This document shows positions 13,371-34,942 of a stretch of 64,000 nt of DNA, piece after piece (position 1 is the stretch's first letter; every line of letters starts with the position of its first letter). The position numbers and the translations under genes are program-made. The stretch is from positions 34,972-98,971 of the IMG/VR virus record IMGVR_UViG_3300035459_000118; one strand, written 5' to 3'. The notes beneath the pieces were generated by a model that worked only from the letters and a program-made list of their open reading frames with translations, had not been told where the DNA came from and searched no databases. This DNA comes from a virus.

Positions 13371-14481
13371 ATCCGTCGAAAGCGTCAGGAAAATTGCCGC
13401 CGAAGCCGATCAATGGAAGAACTTTGCCGATTTTTGTCGACTTGAAATGGCGGTAGGTGGGCCAGACCCTCACATGAAGTTGACCGCAGCAATGTGCAAT
13501 CTAGATTCGTGTCCCTGGTCAGAAAAGGCATGGAGGGGACTTTGTTACCTTGGAGTTTACAATGTTCCCACCGCCGAGCAAATATGGAATGCGTGGCACT
13601 TTGAGCGATCTATCATTGAGAGGGAAGAATTTCTTCCTTGGTTTACCAAACACTGGCAAGGGATTGCGCTCCGTCGGGAGCGTAAAAGTGCCCGTAGCCC
13701 AATCAAGATGGCAAAGTATTTTGAAACCGCTTCTGCTTGGCTTTCTGAAGCACTCCTTGATAAAAAAGAAGGGATCGGATGGATCGGAGGGATGAAAGAT
13801 TTATCCCCTTTTGACCGTTACGAATTTGCCTGGGAGAATGTCCAGCAAATATACTCGATGGGTCGCTACATTGCTTTCAAGTATCTTCAGTATGGGATGC
13901 AATATCTTGATTTCCCTATCAATCTGCAAGATATCCGAGCAAAAGGAGGATGGTCTCCTCGTGCCATGTTGGCAATTCTTTGGCCAGATCAGGCAGTTCC
14001 TATCCTGGGAGGGGATTCTCCAGAAGAAATTGCAGTTGTTGATACGTATGCTGCGAAAACAAAAGCATATTTATTAGAAGGGTATGGAGTAGACCTCTCT
14101 TGGTATAATTTGCAGGTCTTGCTATGCGACTACAAACAATGCTATGTTGGGAAAAGGCAATTCCCAGGGAGAAGTCAAGATAGTGAAATTGCCTATGCCA
14201 AGAAGATTGAAGATTATTGGGGAGGCGATACAATTATGTGGGAGGCTCGCTCCATGATCTTTCCTCATCAAGCCCTAGGAGAAATGAATGGTTGGTATTC
14301 TGTCCGTGAAGAATTAGGCAAGGTCCTTTACGACCATGGATATATGTGGTCTGATCTGATTTACGATTACAATCTTTCAAAAACCCGTCTTGCTACTCCA
14401 GTGAAACACGGGGAGAAGCCAGGGAAAAGTCAAAAAACCCTAGCCTGGGAGTCAGGATTCGGGAGGTTTTTTAAAAAGTGA
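13363..14481 (+). CDS. Possible DNA base hypermodification transferase (aGPT-Pplase / amino acid:DNA transferase-like)
   Basis: A 372-residue, mainly helical protein. Segments such as GGPDPHMKLTAAM, YLGVYNVPTAEQIWNAW, GGWSPRAMLAILWP and NLQVLLCDYKQC recall the family around alpha-glutamyl/putrescinyl-thymine pyrophosphorylases and amino acid:DNA transferases in phages with hypermodified thymine. I cannot confirm this without a profile search. It overlaps the FkbM gene upstream and shares a GTGA junction with the phosphatase-kinase gene downstream, matching known hypermodification operons that pair a kinase with such a protein. It ends in FGRFFKK, like the tails at 8667 and 20878. Confidence 0.45.
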   Translation: MDKSVESVRKIAAEADQWKNFADFCRLEMAVGGPDPHMKLTAAMCNLDSCPWSEKAWRGLCYLGVYNVPTAEQIWNAWHFERSIIEREEFLPWFTKHWQGIALRRERKSARSPIKMAKYFETASAWLSEALLDKKEGIGWIGGMKDLSPFDRYEFAWENVQQIYSMGRYIAFKYLQYGMQYLDFPINLQDIRAKGGWSPRAMLAILWPDQAVPILGGDSPEEIAVVDTYAAKTKAYLLEGYGVDLSWYNLQVLLCDYKQCYVGKRQFPGRSQDSEIAYAKKIEDYWGGDTIMWEARSMIFPHQALGEMNGWYSVREELGKVLYDHGYMWSDLIYDYNLSKTRLATPVKHGEKPGKSQKTLAWESGFGRFFKK

Positions 14482-15542
14482 GCACCTTAAAGGTCCATAC
14501 TATTATTCCCGGAAAACTATACCAGAGAGGGGAATTTGTTAAACTCTCATTGAAAGAGAAGTTGAGCGAACTACAAAGGCTCAGGGTGAATATCATCGTC
14601 AACCTCTGGAATATCCCAGACATTCTTTTGAAGGATGAAATTCCTTATTATTATCACCTTCCAATCCCAGACAGCACCATAAAAGATAGTCAGTTATTGC
14701 TACATACCGTAAAAGAAGTTGCGCAGCTAATCAAAAATGGTGGAAATGCTATTGTTCATTGTCATGCTGGAAGAAACAGGAGTGGGTTGTTCAATGCTTT
14801 GTTGTGTATGAACTTATTGGGGATGTCGGGTACCGAGGCAATAGAACATGTCAGAAAACGCAGACCAAATGCGCTGGCGAATGAAAACTTCGTGAAGTTT
14901 ATTCTTGAACAAGGAGAAAATAAGATGCTCACGCGTAGAATAATCGCCATTGGTGGAGTCCCAGGAACAGGAAAAACCTGTTTGGTCAGAAAATTAATGG
15001 AGCCGGAAGATCAATGGGGTTGTTGCGAACTTGCAAAACTCTTGGTTGCCGAATATAACAAAACACTCAATTTATACGTTTTGGGGAAATACGAAAAAGG
15101 CGAGGTTTTCGCTGGAACCGATCGGCTTTCCATGGCCGTCCAGCCAGAAGCACAAAAATGGGTTGAATCAAGTTGTTCCAATATCCTTTTCGAAGGAGAC
15201 CGGCTTTTCAATGGATCTTTTCTGAGCTTCCTTTTGACCTTGCCGAATACTGAATTGCTCGTGATTTACCTGAAAGCCTCAGAATTTGAACTGAGGAAAA
15301 GATATCAACAACGAGGTTCCGACCAATCCTTACAATTCCTGAAGGGAAGAGAAACAAAATACGCCAAAATCAGACAAGATATGAGGCTCCGAAAATTCAG
15401 TTGCGAGTTTGCCCATGAAACCCCAGAAGATACAAAAAAGATCATTGCCACTGTTCAAGCCTTTCTTTCCACTGGAACTTTACCCCCTACATTGCAAACC
15501 GCTGCCCCCACAGGAATCATGAGCTTCCTTAAAAAGAGGTAA
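14478..15542 (+). CDS. Dual-specificity phosphatase fused to P-loop kinase (HMU-DNA-kinase-like)
   Basis: A 354-residue fusion starting at GTG 14478, which overlaps the previous stop. Residues 1-145 are a tyrosine/dual-specificity phosphatase domain with the intact active site HCHAGRNRSG (Cys95, Arg101). Residues about 150-330 are a P-loop kinase with Walker A GVPGTGKT (160-167), a GTDRLSMAVQ segment and FEGDRLFNGSF. The kinase resembles phage kinases acting on 5-hydroxymethyluracil in DNA, but the substrate is inference. PTP-type domains also include inositol-phosphate phosphatases, notable beside ino1. An internal ribosome site at 14911-14916 could start a kinase-only product. It ends in SFLKKR. 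Confidence 0.75.
   Translation: MSTLKVHTIIPGKLYQRGEFVKLSLKEKLSELQRLRVNIIVNLWNIPDILLKDEIPYYYHLPIPDSTIKDSQLLLHTVKEVAQLIKNGGNAIVHCHAGRNRSGLFNALLCMNLLGMSGTEAIEHVRKRRPNALANENFVKFILEQGENKMLTRRIIAIGGVPGTGKTCLVRKLMEPEDQWGCCELAKLLVAEYNKTLNLYVLGKYEKGEVFAGTDRLSMAVQPEAQKWVESSCSNILFEGDRLFNGSFLSFLLTLPNTELLVIYLKASEFELRKRYQQRGSDQSLQFLKGRETKYAKIRQDMRLRKFSCEFAHETPEDTKKIIATVQAFLSTGTLPPTLQTAAPTGIMSFLKKR
14911..14927 (+). promoter_or_regulatory. Internal ribosome-binding site and ATG at the domain junction
   Basis: AAGGAG at 14911-14916 stands 8 nt before an in-frame ATG at 14925, exactly between the phosphatase and kinase domains. It may yield a free kinase as well as the fusion. Confidence 0.5.
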
Positions 15543-30051: not shown

Positions 30052-30110
30052 ATTTTTTTATCTGGCCCTTTTACCTTGGGACTTTAATTGGCGAGATTGC
30101 TAAAAAATGA
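30048..30110 (+). CDS. Second tiny membrane peptide
   Basis: A 20-residue hydrophobic peptide (MNFFIWPFYLGTLIG then EIAKK). Both ends use ATGA overlaps, linking 29971, this peptide and the SbcC-like gene in one translational relay. It might serve only to couple ribosomes into the SbcC-like gene. Confidence 0.35.
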   Translation: MNFFIWPFYLGTLIGEIAKK

Positions 30111-31366
30111 CTGAATATCTCAAAAGCTTGGGCATCGTCAACTTCCTCAATCACAAGGAACTTCTGGTCGAATTTTGCCCAGGGTTTAACGTGATTGCGG
30201 GAGCAAGCGACTCTGGGAAGTCGGCTATTCTAAGATCAATTTCGTGGATAACCAAAAATGATCCTACAGGAGACGCAATAAAGAACTGGGATGCAAACAA
30301 GAAAGAGTCTGTTTGCGCAGAAATGACGTTTGAAGATACAGATTCCAAAGCGCAAAGGTCCGTTATAAAAGAGCGTGTCGGTTCAACCTCATCATATACA
30401 CTTTCAACCCTCCCGAATAAACTTGATGTTGTCGGCCGGGGAGTCCCAACCGAAGTACAGGAATTCTTGAATTTCTCCGATCTCAACTTCAAAGGCCAGC
30501 ACGACCCATACCTCCTCCAGCTTTCTGGTGGGGAAATGGCAAAGAAGATCAATGACCTGGTTGGGACAAGTGACATTGATATTTCCCTCAAGAACCTCAA
30601 CAGCAAAGCACTTACCGTAAAAAGAAATTGCGAAGAACTCACCGCAGGAATAAAACAGAAAACCGAAGAAATCGAGAAGATGTCCTATCTGGAACAATTG
30701 GGCCAGGATATCTCGGAAATAGAAAGTCTAGAGAAAAAACGCACAGAATCTTTTGCATTATTGGGGAATATCAACAAAACTGTTACAGACATCAAAACTA
30801 TTCAAGACGAGATTGCTTATAATGATTCTGTTCTCGAAGTTGCAGAGCCTGCCGAAGAAGTCAACGCAATGATTTCTTCTCTTGAACAAAAAGAAACAAG
30901 ACTTTTAACAATACATAAAACCATCGAATTCATCAGGGTCCTTAAAGAATCAATTGATAAAGAAACCCGCTTATTGAAAGCCGAACCACTATGGAATGAA
31001 CTTGCTAACCTTATCGTAGAATTGGAAGAGAAACAAAAAAGGAAGAACGAAATATCTTCACTCGTTACTTCTATTGAACATCTTTCCTCTTCCATCGAAA
31101 CAGAAAATGCATGGCTGGAAGCAGATGCTCCTCGAAACGAAACTACAAATTTGATAACTCAGTTACAAGAAAAAGAAACAAGGCTTGCCAGAATAAAATT
31201 AAGGCTCCAAGCAATAGATCGCTTACGAGAAGATATTGATAAACAAGAAAAAGAAGTAACTGCAAAGAAAAATGATTTAGAGGAATTTCTCAAAACATCA
31301 GGAATATGTCCGACATGCCTCAGAGAATATGAACAAGATACAATTTGCAGGATGGTGAACCGATGA
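30107..31366 (+). CDS. SbcC/Rad50-like ATPase, N-terminal half ending at zinc hook
   Basis: A 419-residue protein with Walker A GASDSGKS (residues 32-39), the Q-loop segment KGQHDPYLLQLSGGE, long coiled coil from about 160 to 395, and a CPTC zinc-hook pair at about 401-404, after which the protein stops. A complete SbcC or T4 gp46 would return along a second coiled coil to the Walker B lobe. That lobe appears as a separate gene at 33028. It begins an operon with the SbcD-like nuclease. Confidence 0.85.
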   Translation: MTEYLKSLGIVNFLNHKELLVEFCPGFNVIAGASDSGKSAILRSISWITKNDPTGDAIKNWDANKKESVCAEMTFEDTDSKAQRSVIKERVGSTSSYTLSTLPNKLDVVGRGVPTEVQEFLNFSDLNFKGQHDPYLLQLSGGEMAKKINDLVGTSDIDISLKNLNSKALTVKRNCEELTAGIKQKTEEIEKMSYLEQLGQDISEIESLEKKRTESFALLGNINKTVTDIKTIQDEIAYNDSVLEVAEPAEEVNAMISSLEQKETRLLTIHKTIEFIRVLKESIDKETRLLKAEPLWNELANLIVELEEKQKRKNEISSLVTSIEHLSSSIETENAWLEADAPRNETTNLITQLQEKETRLARIKLRLQAIDRLREDIDKQEKEVTAKKNDLEEFLKTSGICPTCLREYEQDTICRMVNR

Positions 31367-32277
31367 AACTTCTCTGCCTTGGTGACCTACATCTTACCGA
31401 CAATCGGCCAGTCAACAGAACGGACGATTATTGGGAAACCTGTAAACGAAAAGTAAACTTCGTCTTTGATACAGCAGAGCAAGAAGAAGTCAATGCAATA
31501 GTTTCTCCTGGTGATTTAACCGATACCCCTACTCTTTCCAACCTCGAACTCAAAGAACTCATTCAATTATTTCAGCGAAGGCTAAATATTGACTGGCTTT
31601 GTACTTGGGGCCAGCACGATCTTCGTTACAGGACCAAACCCAACAGTGCACTGAGTGTCCTGGAACAATCTATCCCTAATTTATTTATCGTCCAGTATAA
31701 AAACTTGAAAGATATGATTAGGAGCCAAGTTGTTGTTCAAGGTTCGGGATACGGGGAGGAAATCCCCAAGCCAGTTGAAGAGCATTTCAATGTTCTTCTT
31801 GTCCACCGAATGATCATTGAAGAAAAACTCTGGAGTACCCAGGAAGTCTATGAACCTTCCAATATTTTCCTTCGCCAACATCCTTTTGATCTCATTGTCT
31901 CGGGAGACAATCACCAAGGGTTTGTCGCTCAAGCTGCCGGGAGCAAAAGGCTGCTGATAAATTGCGGGGCAATGATGAGAAATTCCATTGCTCTCATGAA
32001 CCACAAACCATTCGTCGTTGTATTCGATACTGAAACCCGCAAGCACAAACAGATATTCATTCCCATCGAACCTGCGGAGACGGTCTTTCGGATGGAAAAG
32101 GTAATTGTCGAAAAAGAACGCAACGAGAATCTGGATGCTTTTGTCTCCGGTCTTGAAAGCCAAAAAGAAGTAGGTTTGTTGTTCCAGGATAATCTTCTTC
32201 GATATGCGGAAAAGAACAATATCGGTCAAGAAATCCTTGATGAAATTTATGAATCATTTAAAAAGAAGAAAGGATAA
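31363..32277 (+). CDS. SbcD/Mre11/gp47-like nuclease
   Basis: A 304-residue metallophosphoesterase, partner of the SbcC-like ATPase in recombination and end processing. Metal-binding motifs are LGDLH (residues 6-10), SPGDLTD, WGQHD, and a later GDNHQGF. ATG 31363 shares ATGA with the upstream stop. It is shorter than bacterial SbcD and close to T4 gp47 (339 aa). Confidence 0.88.
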   Translation: MKLLCLGDLHLTDNRPVNRTDDYWETCKRKVNFVFDTAEQEEVNAIVSPGDLTDTPTLSNLELKELIQLFQRRLNIDWLCTWGQHDLRYRTKPNSALSVLEQSIPNLFIVQYKNLKDMIRSQVVVQGSGYGEEIPKPVEEHFNVLLVHRMIIEEKLWSTQEVYEPSNIFLRQHPFDLIVSGDNHQGFVAQAAGSKRLLINCGAMMRNSIALMNHKPFVVVFDTETRKHKQIFIPIEPAETVFRMEKVIVEKERNENLDAFVSGLESQKEVGLLFQDNLLRYAEKNNIGQEILDEIYESFKKKKG

Positions 32278-32280
32278 ATT

Positions 32281-32565
32281 ATGCCTTTATTTATCGGAGG
32301 GATAAAAGATGGAGAATGGGTTGATGTTCTTCTTCCCTACCCTCGTACTTTTAAAACTCGTAAAACATTTAGTATTTTTGATGCCCATAAATGGTTAGAA
32401 GAAAATAAAGAATTAACTGGACCAGATTTGGAAACTCAAACATATAGAAGAGAAGAATTCATTGAAGGAAATATAACTTTTACGGTGTACGTTCCTATTG
32501 AAATGAAAGAATCCATCTTTAATCAATTATTACAATGGTATCGAAAACCAAAGGAGGAGTCGTAA
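32281..32565 (+). CDS. Hypothetical protein
   Basis: A 94-residue AT-rich gene inside the SbcCD operon. The protein is mixed in charge, with YVPIEMKESIFNQLLQWY at the end. No family is recognised. It lies 3 nt after the nuclease gene and 2 nt before the next start. Confidence 0.6.
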   Translation: MPLFIGGIKDGEWVDVLLPYPRTFKTRKTFSIFDAHKWLEENKELTGPDLETQTYRREEFIEGNITFTVYVPIEMKESIFNQLLQWYRKPKEES

Positions 32566-32567
32566 TC

Positions 32568-32828
32568 ATGCCAACAAAAGAAATCAATATTGAAGAAATT
32601 AAAACAGAGATGGATCGCCTTGGTAAAGTTTTGGAGACAGCCAAAACTAACAAGGCCACTTTCACCGGGAGACTCCAGGAAGCGATGAAGCGTTTAAAGG
32701 AGGATCTTAAATTCTCTTCGGTTGAAGAAGCCTCTGCCGAAGCTGTTCTTCTGGACGCTGACTGCAAGAAATTGCAAGAACAAATCAATTCCAAGTATAC
32801 CAGTCTTCAGGAGAACTACGAATGGTAA
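32568..32828 (+). CDS. Small coiled-coil protein between the SbcC halves
   Basis: An 86-residue protein predicted to be almost entirely coiled coil (heptad-like EIKTEMDRLGKVLETAK onward). GGAGGAG supports ATG 32568. It lies between the nuclease gene and the Walker-B half of SbcC, so it may be the missing returning coiled coil of the split protein. Confidence 0.6.
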   Translation: MPTKEINIEEIKTEMDRLGKVLETAKTNKATFTGRLQEAMKRLKEDLKFSSVEEASAEAVLLDADCKKLQEQINSKYTSLQENYEW

Positions 32829-33031
32829 GGGAAGAATGGTTAAGCCTTCCAATCTGGATAAGAATATGGCGTGTCCTTTTCTGCTCACATCCTTTTAATA
32901 AGAGCGAAAAGATTGGAATTGTTAAATGCCCTCCACTTGATGAATTCGGATACGTGTTTGTAATCCATGTCAGAAGGTGTAATCTTTGCAATAAATTTTT
33001 TATAGACAGCGGAATGGAGAGGGAATCATGA
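32822..33031 (+). CDS. Small cysteine-containing hypothetical protein
   Basis: A 69-residue protein overlapping both neighbours. It has an aromatic N-terminus (WLSLPIWIRIWRVLFC) and a C-terminal CNLC pair with an earlier cysteine, compatible with a zinc knuckle. No family is recognised. Confidence 0.5.
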   Translation: MVREEWLSLPIWIRIWRVLFCSHPFNKSEKIGIVKCPPLDEFGYVFVIHVRRCNLCNKFFIDSGMERES

Positions 33032-33639
33032 TTACTTCCATCCAAGATGCCAGGAAAATATACGAACAGCGCATCGGCAGTCGTGATACCTATGCCAAAC
33101 AAAAGGCCGAAAAGGAACAAGAACTTGTCCTGGCAAATCAAAAATATGAAAACGTCATAAAAGCCCGAGCAGTAGTTCAAGCTGTTGCCAAGGAAACCCA
33201 ACAGAGTATTGAAATTCATATCAGCAATTTAGTTACAATGGCTTTGGCTTCGGTATTTCCTGAACCTTATGAATTCAAACTTGAGTTTGTCGAGCGCAGG
33301 AATTCCACCGAGGCAGACAGAGTCTTTTTAAAGAATGATAATCGAATAGATGATATTCTGAACTTTGGTGGTGGAGGGGTTGCAGACGTAGCCAATTTTG
33401 CTTTGATCATATCTCTTTGGGCATTAAAAAAGACCCGGCCCATATTCATCAACGATGAACCAGACAAATTCCTTCATAACATTGCCTACCAGGAACGAGC
33501 CAGTGCTATGATGAAAATGCTTTGCGAGAAGCTTAGCATTCAAATGATCATTGTTTCAGATCAGCAAAACATTATTGCAGCCGCAGACAAAGTGATCAGA
33601 ATCGGATGCAAAGACGGAATATCTTTTGTGGAGGAATGA
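33028..33639 (+). CDS. SbcC/Rad50-like ATPase, C-terminal (Walker B) half
   Basis: A 203-residue protein. The first ~60 residues are a coiled coil. Then comes an ABC-type lobe with an FGGGGVADVANFALII segment (about 113-128) in the signature-motif position and RPIFINDEPDK (about 137-147) as Walker B, then the D-loop region and SIQMIIVSDQQ. It supplies what the 30107 protein lacks, so the two probably assemble into one ATPase head. The start overlaps the previous stop (ATGA). Confidence 0.72.
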   Translation: MITSIQDARKIYEQRIGSRDTYAKQKAEKEQELVLANQKYENVIKARAVVQAVAKETQQSIEIHISNLVTMALASVFPEPYEFKLEFVERRNSTEADRVFLKNDNRIDDILNFGGGGVADVANFALIISLWALKKTRPIFINDEPDKFLHNIAYQERASAMMKMLCEKLSIQMIIVSDQQNIIAAADKVIRIGCKDGISFVEE

Positions 33640-34095: not shown

Positions 34096-34236
34096 ATGAC
34101 CCTTTCCTTCTGGCAAATCGTTGCGATCAGTTACATCGCGGGTTTGATTTCTTCCCCATTCATTATATGGGGAGTCTGCAAATTAACCTTCTGGGGTTTC
34201 AACAGAATATTCGATGGATTGGCAGAAGGAGACTAA
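34096..34236 (+). CDS. Small membrane protein
   Basis: A 46-residue protein behind AAGGAGG. It is mostly hydrophobic (IVAISYIAGLISSPFIIWGV), with one or two membrane spans and an acidic end. Function unknown. The next gene starts 1 nt after its stop. Confidence 0.55.
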   Translation: MTLSFWQIVAISYIAGLISSPFIIWGVCKLTFWGFNRIFDGLAEGD

Positions 34237-34237
34237 G

Positions 34238-34942
34238 ATGGCCAAAGGCGGAGGATTTGAAAGAGAAGTTTGTTATATCTTGTCAAAATGGATTACCAAT
34301 GGCAAGATGGATGACGCTCTAGGTCGCAGCGACGGTTCTGGAAGCAGGTTTACAGCCAGAAAGAAATCCGGAAAAGACACCGCTAACATGGCAGGAGATA
34401 TTACTTTTACGCACAAGGCAGGAATGTCGCTCATAAAAGTATGGAGCCTTGAGTGTAAATCGGGCTACGGAAGAAAGAAAAAAATCAAAGACAAAGAAGG
34501 AAAATTAGTCAAGAAGATTCAGGACCGTTGGGATATCCTTGACTGCCTTGACTCCAGACAAGAAGAGCCAACATTTCTTGCGATGTGGAGTCAATGCAAA
34601 AGGGATGCAGGACTTTCTCATAGGGAGTCGGTGCTTATTTTTCGGAGAAACCTACATGGGATTTGCATAGCTATGCAACATGAATATTTTCTTCGGCTGA
34701 CAGGTTTCTTCGGGGATTACCCTTCAACAGCCCTTGTTTTACATCTGCCTCAGCAAGAAAGAAAAAATCCATATTTTTTAACTGCTAAAGATTTAAAAGA
34801 ACTTCCTAATAGACGTTTTCGCACTCCGTTACCAACCCCCCAGATAGAAAAGGAGAAAATCATGATCATGTTCTTGAAAGATTTCGTCAAATGGTTGCCG
34901 AATAACTTCGTCAATCTTGTCCATGGAAAAAATCAGCCGTGA
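34238..34942 (+). CDS. Putative PD-(D/E)XK nuclease (resolvase-like)
   Basis: A 234-residue protein. AAGGAG places the start at ATG 34238. The N-terminal domain has a conserved glutamate in GGGFEREVCYIL, AGDITF and then SLECKSG: the E...D...ExK core of PD-(D/E)XK nucleases, such as archaeal-type Holliday junction resolvases. Basic loops (RKKSGKD, GRKKKIKDKEGK) would bind DNA. It follows the SbcCD genes, so a role in recombination or packaging is likely. Confidence 0.65.
   Translation: MAKGGGFEREVCYILSKWITNGKMDDALGRSDGSGSRFTARKKSGKDTANMAGDITFTHKAGMSLIKVWSLECKSGYGRKKKIKDKEGKLVKKIQDRWDILDCLDSRQEEPTFLAMWSQCKRDAGLSHRESVLIFRRNLHGICIAMQHEYFLRLTGFFGDYPSTALVLHLPQQERKNPYFLTAKDLKELPNRRFRTPLPTPQIEKEKIMIMFLKDFVKWLPNNFVNLVHGKNQP

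Follow-up and report, generated by a model that had tools for sequence, protein, structure and literature searches.

A probable phage Mre11-Rad50-type nuclease with its Rad50 subunit divided among genes and probably assembled in trans

We analysed a 64 kb stretch (hereafter, the window) of the 98,971-bp phage record IMGVR_UViG_3300035459_000118, in which a Rad50/SbcC-type ATPase is encoded in separate pieces around the gene for an SbcD/Mre11-like partner. All features of this gene set lie on the plus strand and are given in window coordinates. The first gene (30107..31366; 419 aa), here termed the N-half, encodes Rad50/SbcC lobe I and the first arm with a zinc hook at its end, as indicated by Pfam AAA_23 (above cut-off), phrog_16465, phrog_77, NCBIfam Rad50 and an AlphaFold2 (AF2) model. 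Its reading frame stops 15 residues past the CPTC hook (residues 401-404; 31307..31318), and the stop codon overlaps, as ATGA, the ATG at 31363 of a 304-aa SbcD/Mre11-like calcineurin-fold phosphoesterase (31363..32277; PF00149 at 36 bits against a cut-off of 21.5, and phrog_100). Downstream lie a coiled-coil subunit of 86 aa (32568..32828), identified by its coil profile, with an aligned core of 77-78 aa and a KFSSVEEA break between two helical stretches, and the C-half (33028..33639; 203 aa), which comprises the proximal helix of the second arm and Rad50 lobe II and matches phrog_15167, the 3qkr_B profile and NCBIfam Rad50. Two small open reading frames (ORFs) occupy the intervals: one of 94 aa (32281..32565) between SbcD and the coil gene, outside the conserved set and matching phrog_1523 (E 1.9e-4; function unassigned), and one of 69 aa (32822..33031) between coil and C-half, with no family match. 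An earlier note on this DNA had described an SbcC that ends just after CPTC and a Walker B lobe encoded as its own gene at 33028; these coordinates and the split are real. Its count of four small genes after SbcD was wrong, as three ORFs, the coil gene and the two frames just given, precede the C-half.

The two halves map to opposite ends of a Rad50 chain. On the NCBIfam archaeal Rad50 model PRK03918 (878 positions) the N-half aligns to positions 185-448 and the C-half to 791-877, so that both genes together make up a single Rad50. The scores (58.6 and 26.1 bits) do not reach the equivalog cut-off of 700, as is expected of half proteins from a distant group. Profile searches against solved structures returned 3aux, Methanocaldococcus jannaschii Rad50, as the top match of the N-half (E 5.7e-19), and 3qkr_B, the C-lobe chain of Pyrococcus furiosus Rad50, for the C-half (E 2.6e-16). 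In a structure search with the AF2 model, the predicted N-half head resembles those of SMC, RecF and Rad50 proteins, the best match being 6qpw_A (Z 14.2, 172 residues, root-mean-square deviation [rmsd] 4.8) and the Rad50 match 9a9j_A reaching Z 12.3.

Relatives of the set were gathered from viral contigs, genome contigs, isolated phage records and a few other stretches, and a profile census of the resulting 368 loci detected the N-half in 357, the C-half in 301, the coil in 293 and an SbcD-like gene in 324. The sample is partial, one scan alone having kept 80 of 572 confirmed relatives. Distinct loci number 215 (excluding L144, L209, L210, L211, L212 and L001), and counts of N-halves likewise exclude L144, L211, L212 and L209/L210; L144, L211 and L212 encode a different ATPase family, full length and with a hook.

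The head motifs are conserved across this family. Walker A (GASDSGKS in the window, residues 32-39; 30200..30223) follows the pattern G....GK[ST] in 199 of 201 distinct N-halves, and Q131, by its position presumably the Q-loop glutamine, is invariant in the 98 that were aligned (98/98). A zinc-hook CxxC lies at most 40 residues from the C-terminus in 193/201, and four of the eight N-halves lacking it end in a C-P-x5-C variant; the C-termini of L230, L191, L176 and L195 have such wider-spaced hook cysteines (CPIFDVPC-like) replacing CPxC. In the C-half, the ABC signature LSGG[EQ] is replaced by GGGxxD (the degenerate GGGGVAD in the window, residues 114-120; 33367..33387), with G115 and G117 present in 171 of 172 distinct C-halves, and the Walker B DE with its catalytic Glu (INDEP in the window, residues 141-145; 33448..33462) is retained in 171/172. 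No chain of a split locus contains both lobes and both arms around a central hook; the hook is terminal in the N-half.

All four genes are present, always on the same strand, in 161 of the 215 distinct loci, a recurrence that places the observation far beyond chance. Their order is N-SbcD-coil-C in 127 of these loci, N-coil-C-SbcD in 33 and SbcD-N-coil-C in one; among the four genes, the coil gene immediately precedes the C-half in 161/161, with a gap of at most 60 bp in 110/161. The remaining 54 distinct loci miss at least one gene (mostly fragments with the N-half alone, 23, or loci with N-half and SbcD, 17), and L084 and L113 have more than 5 kb of downstream sequence without a C-half. Where the C-half occurs with no coil-profile match, inspection by eye identified a coil-like ORF before it in L147, L188, L196 and L203 and none in L148 (Microbacterium phage Magritte) and L292. 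Isolated phages carrying the split include Magritte, Bacillus phage vB_BboS-125 and Microcystis phage Mvi-JY20, and the Sutcliffiella horikoshii genome encodes a split set (L143) together with a single-chain SbcC elsewhere. The split Rad50 with its small coiled-coil protein is therefore a trait of a large phage group and no local accident.

The prevalence of these elements also bears on whether the ATPase is of the SMC or defence type, and not part of a Mre11-Rad50-kind nuclease. Weak matches to RecN/SMC profiles and to the PADLOC profiles AriA, LmuB and mad3 would agree with such an assignment, but the SbcD-like gene in 324/368 loci, the Rad50 structures heading the profile searches of both halves and the zinc hook in 193/201 N-halves make it very improbable.

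In vB_BboS-125 the SbcD ORF (L005:8250-9230, NC_048735.1) sits in an unannotated stretch. In Magritte (L148/L149; OR553905.1, a 133-kb record) the C-half (284-934) and the N-half (93838-94890) lie far apart, and the N-half has no CxxC. The N-half is divided over two ORFs at L059:5998-7387 and L158:6001-7588, and the C-half at L080:8204-8839; these may be further splits, frameshifts or sequence errors.

A single long gene, the arrangement that the earlier note had suggested looking for among relatives, is rare in this sample: a true single-chain SbcC occurs at one locus only, seen in two contigs (L209/L210), and in 20 other records no single frame was shown to contain both lobes. Nor did a second SbcC or SbcD turn up in the 98,971-bp record, which may itself be a fragment; a full-length copy there had been named as the finding that would speak against a split machine. 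In nine complete bacterial single-chain SbcC proteins and phage L209, the hook falls near mid-chain (fractional position 0.498-0.513). A 51-row tree, built from 38 of the 191 measured N-halves, two fusions and 11 single-chain forms, divides split from single-chain forms by one branch with support 97/96, the placement of L209 being unsure on account of its very long branch. The fusions join SbcD to the N-half, in L171 (seen again as L293) and in L188.

The single branch also agrees with the split being a neutral scar, left when a homing endonuclease invaded an ancestral single gene at its hook codons, the pieces having persisted since they can still come together and without bringing any advantage. 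Homing endonucleases cut phage genes in pieces, which makes invasion at the hook codons no more than a fair guess for the origin of the split. Two loci agree with it: L280:420-2012 has NUMOD4 and HNH_3 domains fused directly behind the N-half hook, both above cut-off, and in vB_BboS-125 an AP2/HNH-like ORF, with both domains below cut-off, stands between the N-half and the coil gene. Against it, there are only these two cases, either of which may be a later invasion of an existing gap, and the repeat-quantised arm and constant coil described below exceed a simple scar. Known endonuclease-fragmented phage genes, which share with this system a gene in pieces and an endonuclease near the break, are local cases, whereas the Rad50 split runs through the distinct loci counted above. 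The scar is possible yet somewhat unlikely; it concerns origin, and can hold together with assembly from three pieces.

Covariation between the gene products links the two halves. Mean-field covariation (effective number of sequences ~141) was computed on N-half, coil and C-half paired for 152 loci drawn from the 201 distinct complete N-halves, the rest having no anchor or no single complete C-half or coil. The proximal arm of the N-half (residues 157-206; 30575..30724) and the first helix of the C-half (residues 9-58; 33052..33201) yield an antiparallel diagonal at i+j=63 with z 4.8, or 5.2 for a longer arm, and the diagonal recurs with z 5.1 when only the 193-196 arm-length class (69 loci) is analysed. 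N164-C50, N206-C9 (Glu-Arg in 89/152) and N171-C43 rank highest among the pairs, and in a run on two blocks the best pair scores 8.9 against 4.3-6.0 across six pairing shuffles. The C-half helix thus covaries antiparallel with the proximal arm of the N-half, which indicates, indirectly, that this part of the arm is assembled in trans and that the head-proximal arms pair between two gene products, whereas in Rad50 they pair antiparallel within one chain. Together with the joint conservation of both halves and the coil gene, this supports the earlier suggestion of an assembled, not folded-back, Rad50-type machine.

The distal arm is repetitive. In the window, four repeats of 47 residues (residues 213-259, 260-306, 307-353 and 354-400; 30743..31306) are delimited by a repeat grid and by profile self-similarity at lag 47, and are evident by eye. 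The span between the fixed Asp that ends lobe I and the hook was measured in 191 N-arms; its lengths cluster at 147, 194-196, 241-243, 297-298 and 343-346 residues, with others in between (183-193, 200, 204 and 220-252). For five of the six classes compared, profiles of same-length arms show their highest self-similarity at lag 47. The C-half helix measures ~57 residues in the three shorter classes and 64-65 in the two longest, so that the C-arm is ~7 residues longer in the two classes with a ~8-residue offset of the N-arm. Subtracting C-helix from N-arm gives class medians of 90, 137, 184, 231 and 279 (140 loci, 12 of the 152 with long C-half N-termini having been dropped), in steps of 47-48; the portion of the N-arm beyond the C-helix thus approximates an integral number of units, from two to six, the window having four. 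Six places of the tree have close relatives set apart by about one unit (147/192, 194/241, 191/239, 196/243, 296/343 and 298/344). In a Rayleigh test the subtraction evens the class medians but brings no gain in R at period 47 (0.797 against 0.807), and the N-arm alone peaks at period 50 (R 0.889). On these sequence comparisons, arm length seems to change in fixed 47-residue steps.

L171 bears on what pairs with this distal arm: there, the chain formed by SbcD and N-half extends 138 aa beyond the hook, the C-half follows and a separate coil gene is absent. In the model of this fragment (predicted local distance difference test 79.7), residues 242-408, which join the pre-hook arm and the post-hook tail, match antiparallel helical bundles such as 6egc (Z 13.1, rmsd 2.9, 141 residues), although such a bundle may be commonplace, and superposition on Rad50 3av0_B (residues 4-460 on 1-865; 218 residues, rmsd 24.5) places the tail on the second arm. 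The tail is accordingly predicted by the model to be a return arm packed against the pre-hook arm. A post-hook tail where the separate coil gene is absent favours the 32568 coil as the distal second arm, between the C-half helix and the hook, which is its most likely, though unproven, place.

The reading we favour, at a probability of roughly three in four, is a phage nuclease of the Mre11-Rad50 type whose Rad50 subunit consists of three pieces joined in trans. The 30107 product would provide lobe I, the entire first arm and the terminal zinc hook. The 33028 product would provide lobe II and a ~57-residue helix lying antiparallel on the proximal first arm, thereby restoring the split ATPase head, and the 32568 product, with its 78-residue core, would form the distal second arm from the C-half helix to the hook. 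The nuclease itself would be SbcD (31363). A pair of these assemblies would join at the heads and through dimerising hooks in an ATP-driven cycle, and would act on DNA ends while the phage replicates and recombines its genome.

A number of results weigh against this reading or parts of it. When only the two blocks were analysed for covariation, the antiparallel diagonal (4.2) was tied by a parallel one (34 cells, z 4.3). Predicted template modelling scores are low (0.44 for the AF2 model of the window N-half, 0.45 for the L171 fragment), and the H-loop residue of the window C-half is Asp178 (33559-33561), as in its lineage; of 172 distinct C-halves, 152 have His at this site and 16, the window included, have Asp. 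Most concern the coil. Its core is fixed at 77-78 aa (class medians) in all arm-length classes while the N-arm spans ~147-344 residues, so one coil cannot match the first arm, except perhaps in the shortest class, where C-helix and coil (57 + 78) approximate the N-arm (147); in longer classes one to four units are left uncovered. The N-arm and coil (the ND x coil run, four shuffles) covary no better than shuffles, and comparisons of the coil with N-arm and C-arm, anchored at head or hook, by class, or folded at periods 36-59, gave no strong diagonal. On canonical SbcC arms, coil-profile matches scatter on both sides of the hook at no more than 10.2 bits, and for this reason a match to E. coli SbcC (6s6v, residues 529-596, E 0.26) was not used. 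A coil-C pseudo-fusion (L075) was also set aside, its alignment being faulty. Lastly, L171 is a single locus, and its coil-profile score of 15.1 bits is exceeded by ordinary N-arms (up to 16.3), so that only the position of the tail and the model count. The proposal in the earlier note that the coil completes the second arm thus keeps the backing of gene position (161/161) and of the L171 tail, and loses that of matching length and of N-arm/coil covariation.

The uncovered units in longer classes imply stacked coils, paired distal N-arms or self-folding of the extra units. For the last of these, we detected no outstanding antiparallel diagonal within the distal N-arm.

Stacked coils would mean that the second arm consists of several coil copies, each 47-residue repeat of the N-arm docking one coil hairpin; an added repeat would then lengthen the arm with coil and C-half unchanged. 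This proposal, possible yet somewhat unlikely, is consistent with the 47-48-residue steps of the N-arm minus C-arm medians, with a coil core constant in every class, with the one-unit differences between near relatives at six tree places, and with exactly one coil match in each of the 293 loci having any (293/293). Three units are also the commonest number, so that a straight two-unit coil could not tile most arms. However, periodic N-arm/coil covariation did not rise above shuffles, and the hairpin shape comes from the coil sequence alone. The corresponding picture of a modular Rad50, its return arm built from copies of a ~78-residue subunit at one per 47-residue repeat, is doubtful. If true, gain or loss of one repeat in one gene would shift the DNA-tethering arm by ~7 nm, and a change of arm length would need no matching change elsewhere.

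Alternatively, the distal arms of two N-halves in one complex could pair in register, with the coil at one fixed place or acting as a regulator. The AF2 model of the window N-half, which has arm helices at 154-191, 194-285 and 294-398 and a weak break over residues 285-293, points in this direction, since the second and third of these helices are long and cross repeat borders, and such pairing would explain both an arm length independent of coil length and the unseen N-arm/coil signal. It leaves unexplained, however, why a near-constant coil gene directly precedes the C-half and why L171 has a 138-aa post-hook tail in place of that gene, and we consider it unlikely.

The rest of the window has the gene content of a myovirus-type phage that encodes replication functions of its own (DNA polymerase, clamp loader, DnaB helicase, UvsX-like recombinase, exonuclease and NAD ligase) and structural genes for tail sheath, baseplate and major head protein. 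Downstream of the gene set, 34214-34942 encodes a PDDEXK_15/RusA-like resolvase, and a similar-looking ORF lies directly upstream of the N-half in L002. In the ORF at 14478-15542, residues 11-140 match a dual-specificity phosphatase family and residues 138-332 one labelled 'terminase small subunit'.

With bacterial SbcCD and archaeal and eukaryotic Mre11-Rad50, the phage system shares a lobe I containing the Walker A and Q-loop motifs, a coiled-coil arm, a CxxC hook, a Walker B lobe II and a calcineurin-type nuclease partner; those systems have one chain with a central hook, whereas the phage form has three chains, a terminal hook and arms of unequal coded length. T4 gp46/gp47 and PHROG 77/100 are likewise phage-coded SbcC/SbcD. 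PHROG 77 matches both halves, but its profile unites both lobes in one protein, while the split form encodes them in separate genes. Rad50 crystal constructs (1f2t, 1ii8 and 3qkr; chains A and B) also form a head from lobes I and II as two chains. They were made by experimenters, whereas the phage split is natural and includes the arm, the hook and one further chain. Among predicted structures, A7KV18 of Bacillus phage 0305phi8-36 matches the window N-half best; the available text of the paper on it treats this protein as an 'SbcDC fusion' rather than as one part of a divided Rad50; L171 and L188 share its SbcD-N-half plan, with a separate C-half. In the open-licence literature, including the available text of PMC5105663, PMC7824862, PMC3175470 and PMC6375668, no report of a phage SbcC in split form came to light; this search did not extend to subscription papers or bioRxiv.

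Rad50 and SMC proteins are usually viewed as single chains that fold back to match their two arms. The phage form would represent a widespread natural arm made of separate chains, with a length that seems to change in fixed steps. Separate pieces let the roles of hook, arm length and inter-lobe tether be tested, which is hard with a single long chain. Phage genes labelled 'exonuclease' (N-half, PHROG 16465) and 'ATPase' (C-half, PHROG 15167) would accordingly belong to a single machine, which also has a third component that has no name yet.

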